Part shown: positions 50,057 through 56,723 of the stretch, piece after piece
Layout: every line of letters begins with the position of its first letter
How positions within the stretch are numbered: the first letter of the stretch is position 1
Source: a bacterium
Lineage (GTDB): Bacteria > Zhuqueibacterota > QNDG01 > JAFGCO01
Direction of reading: 5' to 3'
DNA: 64,000 bases
Assembly: GCA_016932575.1 (NCBI GenBank)
Contig: JAFGCO010000046.1
Span: forward strand, 1 to 64,000
Notes under the pieces: generated by a model
What the model was told of the DNA's origin: nothing
Seen by the model: the letters and a program-made list of their open reading frames with translations, nothing else
The model's database searches: none
Made by a program: the position numbers and the translations under genes

Positions 50057-51202
50057 TTATTCGAGCAGCATTATTTTTGTCGTTTGAATCCTGGTTTTGG
50101 CGTCTGTTTTCGTGGTTAATTGGACCACATAGGAACCTGAGCTCATTGCCGTTCCGGTCTCATCGGTTCCATTCCACTGAATTTGATGCTCACCGGAATG
50201 CTGATGCCTGTTTATCAGCGTTTTTACCAGCTGGCCGCGAATATTCATAACACGTAAATCAACATGAGAGTAAGAAGGCAGAGAATATTGTATGACTGTT
50301 GTGCTGTTGAATGGATTGGGATAACTGCTGAGTAAAGTATATTTGTCTGGGCGTTCACCCTCTGTCTTCTCCACATCGACCACGACTTCCGGGAATTCCA
50401 CGGCATTATCGATGATCATAATATCATCAAAATAAATGGGTATATTGTTGCCGCCAACATATAATTTAAACGCGTTACGGGTATCCGTTTTCGGTGCAAT
50501 AAATTCGAAGGGTCCAAAATACCCATTTCCTGAAATCGTTATGGGGCCGCCGCCGTAATACTCATAATCTCCGCCGTTTTCCTGCATGGCCCAGCTGATG
50601 GTTTTGTCACTGGGGGTTTCGCTGATAAAAGAGATTTCGTATGTATGGCCGCTGTCTATAGGAAAAGCCTGAAGCATCTGAATGTGCCAGTCAACTGTGC
50701 TGCCGTTGATGATGTCGATATAAACGGCTCCCCCTTCTGAAATGCCGGCATTTTCCTCCCATATTATTGAAGATTGTGCACCCTCATTATTCTGAGTCGA
50801 CCATTGCCGTGTATTGCAGTTGAAATAACTGTTTAGAATCAGATTGCCTTTTTGGACATCCCCTACATAAACGCCGATTGTATCTGAGAATGCTTCATTG
50901 TCCTCTTCATCTGTGGCTTTGGCGTAGAGACGATAATAGCCTGATACAAGATTATTCCATTCGGCTTCCCACGGTTCATGACGAACACGGGCGATTTGAA
51001 CGTTGTTCACATAAACCCGGACATCATGAACGGTCGAATTTTCCACGGAAGCATTCAGTTTAACAATAAAATCCTGACAATCATCAATTTGGCTGCCATG
51101 AACCAGATTGGCGATGCTGACCTGCAAGTTTTCAGCAATGAGTGCTCCGGACATGATACTGAATACAAATAGCATGGCAATAAAGTATCTTGATTTTTTC
51201 AT
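50057..51202 (-). CDS. Secreted Ig-like and carbohydrate-binding-module-like protein with sorting domain
   Basis: 381 aa. A signal peptide (MKKSRYFIAMLFVFSIMSGALIA) leads to a bacterial Ig-like domain (about 27-113), then a jelly-roll region (about 118-275: NLILNSYFNCNTRQWS, VDWHIQMLQAFPIDSGHTYEIS) like CBM4/9 families, and a type IX-like sorting domain (about 293-381) beginning SSYPNPFNSTTVIQYSLP. No catalytic domain. A likely surface glycan-binding partner of the convergent GH5 enzyme (inference from position). Confidence 0.85.
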   Translation of the reverse strand: MKKSRYFIAMLFVFSIMSGALIAENLQVSIANLVHGSQIDDCQDFIVKLNASVENSTVHDVRVYVNNVQIARVRHEPWEAEWNNLVSGYYRLYAKATDEEDNEAFSDTIGVYVGDVQKGNLILNSYFNCNTRQWSTQNNEGAQSSIIWEENAGISEGGAVYIDIINGSTVDWHIQMLQAFPIDSGHTYEISFISETPSDKTISWAMQENGGDYEYYGGGPITISGNGYFGPFEFIAPKTDTRNAFKLYVGGNNIPIYFDDIMIIDNAVEFPEVVVDVEKTEGERPDKYTLLSSYPNPFNSTTVIQYSLPSYSHVDLRVMNIRGQLVKTLINRHQHSGEHQIQWNGTDETGTAMSSGSYVVQLTTKTDAKTRIQTTKIMLLE

Positions 51203-51375: not shown

Positions 51376-51684
51376 ATGATTACATTGAAGAAACTTCAAT
51401 TCACATTATTATTTGTGCTCGGGCTTTACCTGGCCATTTCTTTATTTGTCGGTTTCGCACATAATCATGATATGGATGGAACCTATCATGATGATTGCCC
51501 CGCATGTCTCTGGGAAATTCAGTTCCGAAACACAGATACAACCACACCTGTCATGTGGGTACTGGTTTGCGATTCCGTTCGTGCCGGCCCTTTTCAGGTG
51601 CCATCTTCAACATTTGTTTCTATTACTCACATATTTTATTCTGTTCCCGAATCGCGGGCACCTCCCAGTTTTCATTCAGCATAA
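51376..51684 (+). CDS. Small His/Cys membrane protein at head of metal cluster
   Basis: 102 aa from ATG 51376. One N-terminal membrane helix (7-27) is followed by H29-x-H31, H38 and C41-P-A-C44 (FAHNHDMDG, DDCPACLW), a probable extracytoplasmic metal site, a second weaker hydrophobic stretch (about 57-90) and a C-terminal SRAPPSF. The His-rich plus CPxC plus RAPP layout is shared by small proteins found beside metal-transport genes (DUF2946-like). An in-frame start at 51334 would add 14 residues that precede the helix. I do not assign a firm family. Confidence 0.7.
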   Translation: MITLKKLQFTLLFVLGLYLAISLFVGFAHNHDMDGTYHDDCPACLWEIQFRNTDTTTPVMWVLVCDSVRAGPFQVPSSTFVSITHIFYSVPESRAPPSFHSA

Positions 51685-51764
51685 TTAATTTTAAACAACA
51701 TTGACATTCCATGCCGGAATGGCGATGCCCAACTGTTTTTTATGAATGAAACAAGGAGGAACTC

Positions 51765-53021
51765 ATGATGAGGATCATTGTATCCTTTTTCTGCATCTGT
51801 GGATTATGCAATACCATCTTTATGCCGTCCGTGTATGCACAATCCAAAGCGGAAACGGACAGCCTTTTAAAAAAGCTGCAAAGAATAGAAAATCGTTTGC
51901 AGCAGTTAGAGAAAGAAGAAAAAGAAAGCAATATTCAGGAACTTCTGAACAAAGCAAAAATGATGAGCCGGAAGAAAAAAGAAGGCATCGATGAGCATAA
52001 AAAATTTCACAGCGGTCTGCGCCAGCAATCGGCGATGAATCCCAACATCAGTGTGGGAGGTGAATTTTATTTTGCGACAGGAAAATCGCAAAGTGATTTA
52101 AACCGTTTGCCCTCTGAAAAAGAGTGGGGAACCGGAAAGCTGTTTTTACGCGAAGTCGAACTGGGTGTAGAATCCGCTTTGGATCCATACAGCCGGGGTA
52201 AGGTATTTATCGGTCTCGGAAATGAAGAAGCCTCTGTTGAAGAAGCCTATCTTGTCTGGCTGAACTGTCCTTTAAACATGAATTTAAAAATGGGAAAATT
52301 CAAAACTCAGTTTGGCCAGTTAAACCGATATCATGATCATGCCTTGCCGCAGTTCGACAGGCCGCGGGTTCTGGTTCAGTTTTTTGGAAACGAAACCCTG
52401 CATGGTCTGGGACTGGCCGGGAATTTTTTACTTCCCCGTTTATGGGCGCATGTGAATGAACTGGATTTGGAAGTGATTTCAGGCGGGAACGGGTTCAGTT
52501 TTACACATGAGGGCCGTCATAATTTTGTTTACGTCACGCATTTAAAAAATTACTATGATTTAAGCCGAAGCACATATTTTGAAGTCGGTCTGAGTGGCGC
52601 GGCAGGTAAAAATGATCCGAAAGAAGTGCGCGAAACATGGATAGGCGGAGCAGATGTCACTTTAAAGTGGCAACCCCCGGACCGGGCCAAATACAAGGGG
52701 CTTGAATGGCGGACTGAATTTCTGATATCGAAGCGTCAAGAGGGACCGGACTGGATAAATGCATACGGTGCTTTTTCGTCCATTCAGTTCCGTCTGGCCG
52801 CCCGAACCCTGATCAGCGGCCGGCTGGATATGACTCAGCTCCCCTGTGACAGGGATATGTGGGAGCGTGGAGGCGCCGTGGCTTTTGATTACTGGCAGAG
52901 CGAATTTGTATTTATTAGGTTGCAATACACCTATATTGACCGGAATTTTGATGAAAATGACCAGCGCCTGATCCTGCATACATGCTGGGCCATGGGTCCG
53001 CATCGGCATGAGGCTTATTAA
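51765..53021 (+). CDS. Outer-membrane porin-like protein in the metal cluster
   Basis: 418 aa. A signal peptide (to about residue 25, VYAQ) and a periplasmic coiled coil (27-65: LLKKLQRIENRLQQLEKEEK) precede a beta barrel from about 80, with alternating aromatic strands such as NISVGGEFYFATGK, KVFIGLGNEEASVEEAYLVWL and FKTQFGQLN, and a last strand VFIRLQYTYID before a His-containing end, HRHEAY. This resembles the phosphate-selective-porin-like barrels with an N-terminal coiled coil. AAGGAGGA precedes the ATG. Position between the His/Cys protein and the ZnuA-like protein suggests metal passage across the outer membrane. Confidence 0.8.
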   Translation: MMRIIVSFFCICGLCNTIFMPSVYAQSKAETDSLLKKLQRIENRLQQLEKEEKESNIQELLNKAKMMSRKKKEGIDEHKKFHSGLRQQSAMNPNISVGGEFYFATGKSQSDLNRLPSEKEWGTGKLFLREVELGVESALDPYSRGKVFIGLGNEEASVEEAYLVWLNCPLNMNLKMGKFKTQFGQLNRYHDHALPQFDRPRVLVQFFGNETLHGLGLAGNFLLPRLWAHVNELDLEVISGGNGFSFTHEGRHNFVYVTHLKNYYDLSRSTYFEVGLSGAAGKNDPKEVRETWIGGADVTLKWQPPDRAKYKGLEWRTEFLISKRQEGPDWINAYGAFSSIQFRLAARTLISGRLDMTQLPCDRDMWERGGAVAFDYWQSEFVFIRLQYTYIDRNFDENDQRLILHTCWAMGPHRHEAY

Positions 53022-53201
53022 TTAAGTATTGTCTGAAGAATAAGGATCATGCACAGAAAAAAGGCATTTTGAATAACCAAAAAAATCAAAGGATCGTAAA
53101 ATCACCGGTCCTGCAAATTAACCAATCGGACAAAGCCTCTGTTCCAATTCAGGTAAAAAACGGGCTGAGGTCTTGAAAAACATCAATGAAGGAGCATCAA
53201 G

Positions 53202-54233
53202 ATGAAGATAAACAAGATGATATTAATCAGTCTCATTGGATTCGTTTCCATTTGGAGTCATGCCAAAATTAACGTGGTGACCACATTTTCTGATTTCGCT
53301 TCAATTACGGAATTTCTTGGAGGAGATCTGGTCGAGGTTGAATATTTATCTCACGGCGATCAGGATCCGCATTTTGTACCGCCCAAACCGAGCCTGGCCC
53401 TGAAATTAAAAAAGGCGGACCTGCTTGTATCTACCGGAATGGATTTGGAAATGTGGCTGACCACGCTTCAGGACAAAGCCAGGAACAAGCGGATCATGGA
53501 CGGGGCTCTCGGCTTTGTTACCGTATCTCCGGGCATTGATATTCTGGAGAAACCCGAACAGGCACTCAGCCGCTCGGAAGGTGATGTGCACATCTTTGGA
53601 AATCCACATATTCATACCAGTCCGATAAACTGGATCACAATCTCAGAGAATATATTAATTGGATTAAAGCGGGTCGATCCGAAAAACAGCCAGACCTATG
53701 AAGAACGGCAAAAAGCGTTTACGGACCGTGTCCACAGAGCCATGTTCGGGGATGCACTGGTCGATTTGATCGGCGGTGAGCAGCTAATTGAATTGCATAA
53801 GGCCGGCACCCTGTTTGAATTTTTAAAAGCCGAATATGAAGGCAGACCGCTCGAGATCCAGCTTGGCGGATGGCTGAAACAGGCCTTGCCTTTTCGGGAT
53901 GTAAATATTGTGGCGTATCATAAAAACTGGTCCTATTTTGCCAGGGAATTCGGATTGAATATTATCGGATATATTGAACCCAAACCAGGCATCCCTCCGA
54001 CCCCTAAGCATGTTGAACACATGATTCAGCTGATCAGGGACAGGAACATTCAGGTGATGCTTGTGGCATCATATTTCGAAAAACGCAAACCCACGACCAT
54101 TGCTCAGAAAACCGGGATTCGGGCCCTGTTTCTTCCGCTTTCCGTGGGCGGCCAGGAAGGGGTTGACGATAATTTCAAGCTGATGGATTTCTGGCTTCAG
54201 CAATTGAATGATGTCATCAGTAAAAAGGAGTAA
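53202..54233 (+). CDS. ZnuA/cluster 9-type metal-binding lipoprotein-like periplasmic protein
   Basis: 343 aa with a short signal peptide (to about residue 21). Cluster A-I binding protein fold with metal ligands H57 (GDQDPHF), H136 (GNPHIH) and H240 (VAYHKNWSYF). A helical insertion of about 40 residues (about 185-228, ending LGGWLKQALPF) lies before the third ligand. Where many relatives have a Glu (VEPYF), this protein has VASYF, so the fourth ligand may differ. No lipobox seen. It should deliver zinc or manganese to the two permeases that start 3 bp downstream. Confidence 0.9.
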   Translation: MKINKMILISLIGFVSIWSHAKINVVTTFSDFASITEFLGGDLVEVEYLSHGDQDPHFVPPKPSLALKLKKADLLVSTGMDLEMWLTTLQDKARNKRIMDGALGFVTVSPGIDILEKPEQALSRSEGDVHIFGNPHIHTSPINWITISENILIGLKRVDPKNSQTYEERQKAFTDRVHRAMFGDALVDLIGGEQLIELHKAGTLFEFLKAEYEGRPLEIQLGGWLKQALPFRDVNIVAYHKNWSYFAREFGLNIIGYIEPKPGIPPTPKHVEHMIQLIRDRNIQVMLVASYFEKRKPTTIAQKTGIRALFLPLSVGGQEGVDDNFKLMDFWLQQLNDVISKKE

Positions 54234-54236
54234 AGC

Positions 54237-55052
54237 ATGTCTGAGATATTCAGCTTTCTCTCCATCCAGATTGTGCTGCTTCTTGTTGTCACATCGGTGC
54301 ATACCTATTTGGGTCTGCATGTGATTCGCCGCGGCATCGTGTTTTCTGATCTGGCATTGGATCAATTGGCCGCCCTGGGGGTGATTGTGGGCGTTGGTCT
54401 CGGTATTCAGGGCGGAACCACAATGTCATATTTGATATCCTTTGCAGCGGTTTTACTGGGATCTGTATTTCTGGCTTATGTTAAACCCAGAGGCCATCAG
54501 ATTCCTCATGAAGCCGTGATCGGTATTCTTTACGGACTGGCTCTCGTGGCATCGGTTATGGTGGCCGATAAATTTTCAGGCGGAGCCGCTTATGTCACGC
54601 AAACGCTTTCCGGATGCATGCTGTGGATCAGCTGGCCCCTGGTCATTGTGACTGTGATTGTTTATATCATTTTAGCAGTTTTTCATTTTCTATTCCGGGA
54701 TAAAATGATTGCTATCACAGAAAAACCGAATGGTTCAAAACAGGAAAATTTCTGGGATTTCCTGTTTTTTATTTCTCTCGGGATTATCACCGTTCTCATC
54801 GTACCGATCGCGGGTGTGCTTCTGGCCTACGGTTTTCTCATGATTCCCGCGGCAACAGCGGCATTGTTTACCCGGGGATGGGGAAGCGGGCTGAAAATTG
54901 GATGGAGTGTTGGATTTGGCGCTTCGGTTGCGGGTTTGTTTTCATCATATGCTTTCAAGCTGCCTTACGGGCCAACACTTGTACTGGCTCTTGGTCTGTG
55001 TTTTATGGTGGGATTGGCAGTTAAGCTTGTTGGTGGAAACCCTGCCAGTTAA
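54237..55052 (+). CDS. ABC-3 family (ZnuB-like) metal permease, first of two, divergent
   Basis: 271 aa with about eight membrane helices. It is ABC-3-like in VIRRGIVFSDLALDQLAALG (29-48) and IAGVLLAYGFLMIPAATAALF (191-211). The cytoplasmic loop at about 155-180, where ZnuB has the conserved D...A...G segment, instead reads through KQENFWDFLFF. QIPHEAVIGI (88-97) replaces the usual D-x3-G helix start and is shared with the next gene. It starts 3 bp after the binding-protein stop. No ATPase gene follows the pair. Confidence 0.88.
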   Translation: MSEIFSFLSIQIVLLLVVTSVHTYLGLHVIRRGIVFSDLALDQLAALGVIVGVGLGIQGGTTMSYLISFAAVLLGSVFLAYVKPRGHQIPHEAVIGILYGLALVASVMVADKFSGGAAYVTQTLSGCMLWISWPLVIVTVIVYIILAVFHFLFRDKMIAITEKPNGSKQENFWDFLFFISLGIITVLIVPIAGVLLAYGFLMIPAATAALFTRGWGSGLKIGWSVGFGASVAGLFSSYAFKLPYGPTLVLALGLCFMVGLAVKLVGGNPAS

Positions 55053-55068
55053 AAAATAAGGATATTTT

Positions 55069-55911
55069 ATGGGTGAAATATTCATTTTTTTGTTTCCGCC
55101 GTTTGTTGCATGCCTGCTCATGGTGCTGATGTTTGGTTATCTGGGGATTCACGTGCTCAAGCGGGAAATTATTTTTATTGACATTGCCCTGGCGCAAATC
55201 GCAGCCGTGGGATCCACACTGGCCTTTGTGATCTGGCGTGTAGAAGAAGACCATGTGCTTGCATATCTGACGGCTTTTGGATTTACTGTGCTTGCGTCGC
55301 TGTTTTATGCACAAGCAGGCAAACGGATTAAGCAAATTCCTCATGAAGCGATTATCGGCGTTTCCTATGCTGTCGCTGCGGCAGCCGCGCTTTTTATGAT
55401 GGCACTTGCCGCAGGCGGAGATGTGCATCTTGAACACATGCTTACCGGCAGTATTTTGTGGGCCAAATGGTCCGATATTCTCGTTTGTGCCGTTGCATTC
55501 GTATGGATTGGTTTGATCCACTGTATTTTTTACTGGCGTTTTATCCGGCTATCTGAATCCATGGAACGGTCGGATTATCATGAGAAGTCGCCCTGGTGGG
55601 ATTTTCTGTTTTATGTCACCATGGGTGTGGTGATCACGATTTCAATTCGTATTGCCGGCGTGCTGGTTGTTTTTTCGCTGCTTATTATACCTGCCACGTT
55701 TTCAGCACTTTTTGCAACAGGATGGGGTGACCGTCTGCGTATTGCCTATGCATTGGGAATTTCGGCCACTCTTGCCGGATTGATTTTTTCATACACCCTG
55801 GATTTTTCATGTGGCCCCTCAGTGGTGACATTTCTGGGAATCGGACTCATTATCGGGGTCGTTATTCGGAAAAAAGAAGGGAGGAAGAGCGGCGAACTGA
55901 AACCTCCCTGA
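55069..55911 (+). CDS. ABC-3 family (ZnuB-like) metal permease, second of two, divergent
   Basis: 280 aa, paralogous to the preceding permease: IFIDIALAQIAAVG (35-48), QIPHEAIIGV (89-98), a loop with SPWWDFLFY (174-182) and IAGVLVVFSLLIIPATFSALF (195-215). About eight membrane helices and a charged tail (RKKEGRKSGELKPP). The cytoplasmic D...A...G segment of ZnuB is missing here as well. The pair may form a heterodimer. 17 bp separates the genes, and the next gene downstream is convergent, so the operon ends here. Confidence 0.88.
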   Translation: MGEIFIFLFPPFVACLLMVLMFGYLGIHVLKREIIFIDIALAQIAAVGSTLAFVIWRVEEDHVLAYLTAFGFTVLASLFYAQAGKRIKQIPHEAIIGVSYAVAAAAALFMMALAAGGDVHLEHMLTGSILWAKWSDILVCAVAFVWIGLIHCIFYWRFIRLSESMERSDYHEKSPWWDFLFYVTMGVVITISIRIAGVLVVFSLLIIPATFSALFATGWGDRLRIAYALGISATLAGLIFSYTLDFSCGPSVVTFLGIGLIIGVVIRKKEGRKSGELKPP

Positions 55912-56156: not shown

Positions 56157-56723
56157 TTAAAAGAAAAGGAAATATCGCGGCGCCCGTTTTATGTATTCGC
56201 TGTAAGATTCACCGTATTTCTCAAGACAGAAACGTTCTTCCGCCAGTGTTCCAATATGAATGCCGATGCCGCTCAATACATTGAAAGCAATGATCAGCCA
56301 GGAACCGGTTGCCAGACCGACACCATAATAAGCAACCCATGAAAAGAAATGAATCGGATTACGGGAAATGCGGTATACGCCTTTTGTTACAGGCTGATCC
56401 AGAGGCGTGATCGCAAATGCATGCACGGCCAGTATATAAAGAATCATGCCTGTTCCAAACAAACAAAATCCCCATAACAGCAATTGCCGGTCGGACCGGA
56501 TCGGAAGAAATATCGTTAATATCAGCATCATGTAATAAAGAGATATCGTGATCGGCATCACCCGTTTTACAGCCATCGTATCACGGGGATGAAACATCAG
56601 CCGCCGGATGATTTGACGACGATTTTGATAGCATAATGGCTGGAAGAACATGACAGCCAGATAGAAGGCCAGAAGAATCCATCCGTTCAGCCAGCCGATT
56701 GACAGCTCGGGATTCCAATGCAT
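56157..56723 (-). CDS. Isoprenylcysteine/phospholipid methyltransferase-like membrane protein
   Basis: 188 aa with about five membrane helices. The C-terminal half carries the ICMT/PEMT signature: GVYRISRNPIHFF, a Gly/Ala-rich helix and AEERFCLEKYGESYSEYIKRAPRYF, which binds S-adenosylmethionine and the isoprenoid or lipid substrate. The substrate is unknown. Its start is 1 bp after the thyX stop, so it is co-transcribed with thyX. Confidence 0.85.
   Translation of the reverse strand: MHWNPELSIGWLNGWILLAFYLAVMFFQPLCYQNRRQIIRRLMFHPRDTMAVKRVMPITISLYYMMLILTIFLPIRSDRQLLLWGFCLFGTGMILYILAVHAFAITPLDQPVTKGVYRISRNPIHFFSWVAYYGVGLATGSWLIIAFNVLSGIGIHIGTLAEERFCLEKYGESYSEYIKRAPRYFLFF

Follow-up and report, generated by a model that had tools for sequence, protein, structure and literature searches.

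A cluster of five genes in a bacterial DNA of 64,000 nucleotides (the whole stretch that was analysed, hereafter the window) encodes a ZnuA-like metal-binding protein and two ABC-3-type permeases, and the lack of a ZnuC-like ATPase to go with them is well supported. With no ZnuC-like motor in the cluster or as a recognisable stray gene, another energy source probably moves the metal, and we consider it fairly probable that these genes specify an ABC-3-derived, binding-protein-dependent importer, likeliest for Zn2+, that runs without an ABC ATPase, probably on the membrane potential or on protons. From the sequences, we infer the lack of any ATPase at all and the energy source, as well as the direction of import, the substrate, the pairing of the permeases as a heterodimer, and the position of their coupling helix.

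The five open reading frames (51376-55911) are all on the plus strand and are flanked on either side by minus-strand genes (50057-51202 and 56157-56723), with 3 bp between the ZnuA-like gene and perm1 and 16 bp between perm1 and perm2 (Table 1). A preliminary description of this DNA had given the same gene order, strand, and tight spacing, which the open reading frames bear out apart from a second gap reported there as 17 bp, and had noted that no ABC ATPase occurs in the cluster or the window, which holds for the entire 65 kb contig (C69) that contains it. A comparison of metal-box palindromes upstream of the operon yielded no site in common, and a search of plasmids yielded no match.

Table 1. 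Features of the metal-uptake cluster, with positions in the window.
Feature	Position	Strand	Description
Small His/Cys protein	51376..51684	+	One N-terminal hydrophobic segment; H-x-H, C-P-A-C, and C-terminal R-A-P-P motifs
Outer-membrane beta-barrel, porin-like	51765..53021	+	16 predicted strands, N-terminal coiled coil, without plug domain
ZnuA-like (cluster A-I) periplasmic metal-binding protein	53202..54233	+	PF01297, E 2e-43
ABC-3-type permease 1 (perm1)	54237..55052	+	PF00950, E 3e-21
ABC-3-type permease 2 (perm2)	55069..55911	+	PF00950, E 4e-24
perm2 residues 163-174	55555..55590	+	Counterpart, by alignment, of the presumed coupling helix in canonical ABC-3 permeases

The source genome (G000) is a 4.41 Mb draft of 72 contigs that is 94.5% complete, and outside the cluster it contains no second ABC-3 permease or ZnuA. 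We examined its approximately 30 ABC ATPases in their gene context, twenty being compared with NCBIfam or named from it and the remainder named by eye from sequence and neighbours, and most lie beside a permease of their own; they include LptB, CysA, LolD/MacB-like, MsbA, FtsE, PstB, MlaF-like, FetA, and SufC-like proteins, ABC-2 and ABC-F types, and an EcfA1-EcfA2 pair. Searching this genome with a ZnuC profile derived from the ATPases of canonical loci revealed no ZnuC-like ATPase, the top match being CysA at 177 bits as compared with 340-405 bits for the references. Five further stretches with weak ABC_tran matches were judged by eye not to be ABC ATPases; RsgA-like, Der-like, CpaF-like, and AAA-type P-loop proteins account for them, and one adjoins a MiaA-like gene.

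ATPases of the MsmK type are common to several sugar importers, and the permeases described here could likewise still need ATP and borrow a non-cognate ATPase that is shared with another system, such as EcfA1-EcfA2. The adjacent EcfA1 and EcfA2 genes (L176:8160-9816, on contig C65) are unlinked to the operon, and no EcfT was detected in the source-genome assembly, so that either the draft may lack an EcfT that the organism has or the pair may be an orphan; a stray ATPase pair of this kind counts against an ATP-free reading of the operon. We nevertheless regard a borrowed ATPase as unlikely. The source genome has no FecCD permease, and hence lacks a further type II importer permease of this sort from which an ATPase might be borrowed. 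In addition, ECF modules are near-universal among the relatives whatever type of ABC-3 permease they have, with EcfT present and often at a separate locus, and because this is also true of relatives with canonical permeases only, ECF modules do not track the operon, and EcfA1-EcfA2 is retained only as a less likely partner.

Surveys of 59 genomes, comprising the source genome and 58 relatives, distinguished two main classes of ABC-3 permease, canonical (E < 1e-50) and divergent. Canonical permeases mostly have a ZnuC-like ATPase adjoining, and all 25 of the ZnuC-like ATPases found in the 59 genomes (E < 1e-55) adjoin canonical permeases, whereas the operons of divergent permeases read small protein, barrel, ZnuA, permease, and in some cases a further permease, without an ATPase. 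By hand count, 17 genomes have canonical permeases only, 7 have both classes, 28 have divergent permeases only, and 7 have neither clearly; a ZnuC-like ATPase is present in 24/24 genomes with a canonical permease and in 0/28 of the divergent-only genomes, by the same hand count. The suggestion in the preliminary description that an unlinked ATPase is shared is thus unsupported in its most obvious form, a ZnuC gene at another site, both here and in the source genome, and an ATPase matched to these permeases and co-occurring with them was sought and not found.

A dedicated ATPase could in principle be present and too divergent to be recognised, or be absent from the assembly, as might happen in a draft as fragmented and incomplete as that of the source genome. 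We consider this very improbable, as about 25 of the divergent-only genomes without a ZnuC-like ATPase are at >=90% completeness, with some rated 98-100%. A deeper search of four near-complete genomes of this kind reached at most 153 bits, as compared with 221-392 bits for ZnuC matches elsewhere, and the comparable candidates in these four genomes are nearest to CysA, MlaF, EcfA, LolD-like, or ABC-2-type ATPases.

The ATPase-less gene order extends well beyond these relatives. A scan of species genomes identified at least 557 relatives, the best 80 of which belong to KSB1, Bacteroidota, Acidobacteriota, Gemmatimonadota, Planctomycetota, Zixibacteria, Calditrichota, Omnitrophota, Myxococcota, Latescibacterota, and others. 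Among 109 motor-less loci, some of which represent the same genome twice and many of which end at contig edges, a ZnuA gene is found in 102, and an ABC ATPase lies in the same-strand run in only two, neither of them ZnuC-like; in control canonical ABC-3 loci, an ATPase is found in 20/24. The recurrence that the preliminary description had proposed to look for is therefore confirmed across many phyla, with no ZnuC-like ATPase in the operon at any of the 109 loci, and an assembly artefact is rejected because the operon recurs in more than 100 loci. At 8/109 loci, ABC ATPases lie no more than 5 kb from the permease; these candidates were set aside, as none is ZnuC-like and the closest families for most of them are exporter-type or SufC-type ATPases, with the assignment being weak for those at L155 and L115.

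In a maximum-likelihood tree, a branch with 100/100 support separates the motor-less permeases from the sampled canonical permeases and is present in 200/200 bootstrap trees, the tree being midpoint-rooted and its canonical set consisting of 25 rows, mostly from one phylum. The perm1 of the window nests in the motor-less clade, and the tandem copies split into a perm1 group and a perm2 group, both of them embedded among the single permeases.

The predicted structure of perm2 (AF2 model, mean pLDDT 93) matches the PsaC fold (VIA Z 27.1 over 263 residues, rmsd 3.4). Type II importers dock on their ATPase through a coupling helix that lies between TM6 and TM7, and a conserved Gly of this helix matters for uptake (PMC5136619, PMC8660799). 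We located the coupling helix of the present permeases via alignment, from its place in the sequence and the literature rather than from a structure of their own, and the canonical ABC-3 coupling motif is presumed to be F-D-x-E-x-A-x(3)-G, corresponding to perm2 residues 163-174. When 249 windows of 12 residues are ranked by entropy, this segment comes first in the motor-less family, as its least conserved stretch, and stands in the middle, at rank 128, in canonical permeases; the family compared here spans many phyla, and the canonical set consists of 25 rows drawn mostly from a single phylum. The motif residues are well kept in canonical permeases (F 96%, D 92%, A 100%, G 76%); in single-permease relatives, F and D are mostly gone, with A168 at 82%, Gly at 73%, and V174 at 58%, and in the perm1 and perm2 groups the whole motif (canonical F163, D164, A168, and the Gly) is lost. 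The perm2 model likewise has no regular helix at 165-174. Judged by alignment, the presumed coupling helix is decayed in the tandem-permease branch, which includes the window.

This decay bears in two ways on the idea of a borrowed ATPase. The part of the A...G..V motif kept in single-permease relatives looks as if something still docks there, as a borrowed ATPase would, and to that extent it speaks against ATP-free transport; its complete loss in the tandem branch, the window's own, argues the other way. Because the single permeases keep A168 and the Gly while the tandem copies lose all of the motif, the linked ATPase was probably lost first and the loop decayed later, or else the single-permease members still dock something. 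L107, L121, and L126 are among the single-permease loci that have kept part of the motif though no ATPase is linked to them.

The ZnuA-like protein matches PF01297 at 149 bits (cut-off 29), and its H57, H130, H136, and H240 are invariant across 76 relatives, with H57, H136, and H240 being the likely metal ligands. Alignment with a PsaA-type protein indicates that the Glu serving there as third ligand is replaced by His240 and that the Asp serving as fourth ligand is lost, and because of these two changes the ligand set would suit Zn2+ better than Mn2+.

In MntC, an essential Asp-His-Asp triad lines the metal path (PMC8487065). The corresponding positions here are occupied by D38, Q43, and E93 (D-Q-E), conserved at 96-99%, although D38 sits one alignment column off the canonical Asp, and the first Asp is mostly absent from the canonical permeases of this phylum as well. 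A further residue, H28, is at 98% in the motor-less family, at a position occupied by F or Y in canonical permeases. As these residues are near-invariant at metal-site positions, handling of metal within the membrane is apparently retained but altered.

The same residues bear on whether this is an importer at all, since the permease pair could instead be a metal sensor, a scaffold, or a route for export or envelope delivery assembled from ABC-3 parts. The dedicated porin-like barrel, the small His/Cys protein, and the loss of recognised energy coupling would all be compatible with such a role. We nonetheless find it quite improbable, and inward transport fits best, because titratable intramembrane residues are near-invariant at the metal-site positions and because the gene for a periplasmic binding protein is so regularly present at the motor-less loci.

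The barrel gene is visible in 94/109 motor-less loci as compared with 0/24 canonical ABC-3 loci, and His/Cys pairs and an R-[AG]-P-P C-terminus recur in most upstream open reading frames of relatives from several phyla (L078-L157). The small protein matched no Pfam or NCBIfam family, and neither database gave the barrel a name from its sequence. The AF2 model of the barrel (mean pLDDT 88.9) has 16 strands and no plug, and its best Foldseek matches, MOMP, OprO/OprP, and DcaP, are the nearest solved folds, at about 10% identity; what sets the barrel apart from these porins, besides its sequence, is its linkage to a metal-uptake operon. TonB-dependent receptors, by comparison, have 22 strands and a plug domain. 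The "outer-membrane gate" of the preliminary description is better described as a plug-less, 16-stranded barrel of porin-like type.

The system most closely resembles ZnuABC, PsaABC, and MntABC (ABC-3, type II-like), with which it shares a cluster A-I binding protein of the PF01297 family, permeases that score above the PF00950 cut-off, with the PsaC fold in the perm2 model, and adjacent genes. It differs from them in that operon and genome have no ZnuC-like ATPase, the coupling motif is eroded, the D-H-D triad has become D-Q-E plus His28, the two permeases are unequal, and a porin-like barrel and an R-A-P-P protein are part of the operon. The AztABC zinc transporter supplies the top NCBIfam models, AztB for the permeases and AztC for the binding protein, at scores far below the equivalog thresholds (48 and 61 of 280 bits for AztB, 86 of 350 bits for AztC), and it has an ATPase, AztA, whereas none lies beside the genes described here.

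There is precedent for transport after the loss of a motor, as BtuM and solitary BioY transport without the ECF ATPase module (PMC6072759). In these, too, the membrane part of an ATP-driven importer acts without its ATPase, although they have no periplasmic binding protein and carry vitamins rather than metal ions. Their fold is unrelated to that of ABC-3 permeases. In TRAP transporters, a periplasmic binding protein feeds a secondary transporter, but the membrane proteins are different ones with no ABC ancestry.

On the reading that we prefer, metal would enter the periplasm via the dedicated porin-like barrel, with the small His/Cys protein possibly helping, and would there be bound by the ZnuA-like protein, which would dock on a perm1-perm2 heterodimer, or on a homodimer in the single-permease relatives. 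The metal would then cross the membrane at the altered site formed by Asp38, Gln43, Glu93, and the new invariant His28, driven by the membrane potential or by proton exchange. The preliminary description had proposed a carrier that has diverged and dispenses with ATP. That proposal, in which ATP-free transport itself is the inferred part, is favoured by the decay that the presumed coupling helix shows in this branch and by the new invariant residues throughout the family. Whether the motor-less loci as a whole represent a multi-phylum class of binding-protein-dependent secondary metal transporters, descended from an ABC importer by ATPase loss, whose permeases have a remodelled metal and proton chemistry and became a heterodimer by duplication in one branch, and which have a porin of their own, seems to us an evenly balanced question.

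Searches of the open-access literature, which leave most subscription journals outside their scope, found no description of ABC permeases that lack ZnuC or an ATPase, and no NCBIfam equivalog matches the permeases or the binding protein. ABC importers are defined by their ATPase, and if ATP-independence were shown, the system would approach a new class. The ABC permease fold could then serve as a secondary transporter or a potential-driven channel, and the loss and replacement of ATP coupling would become directly testable. Annotation by family would label these proteins components of a zinc ABC transporter and would then assign the wrong energetics to many environmental bacteria. A porin-based, TonB-independent route across the outer membrane for a scarce metal is also suggested by the operon.

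One of the surveyed genomes (G006) carries two full copies of the five-gene operon, on separate contigs (L068 and L069). In the window, the adjoining minus-strand gene at 50057-51202 encodes a secreted protein with a CBM_4_9 carbohydrate-binding domain and a C-terminal sorting domain of the type IX secretion kind.
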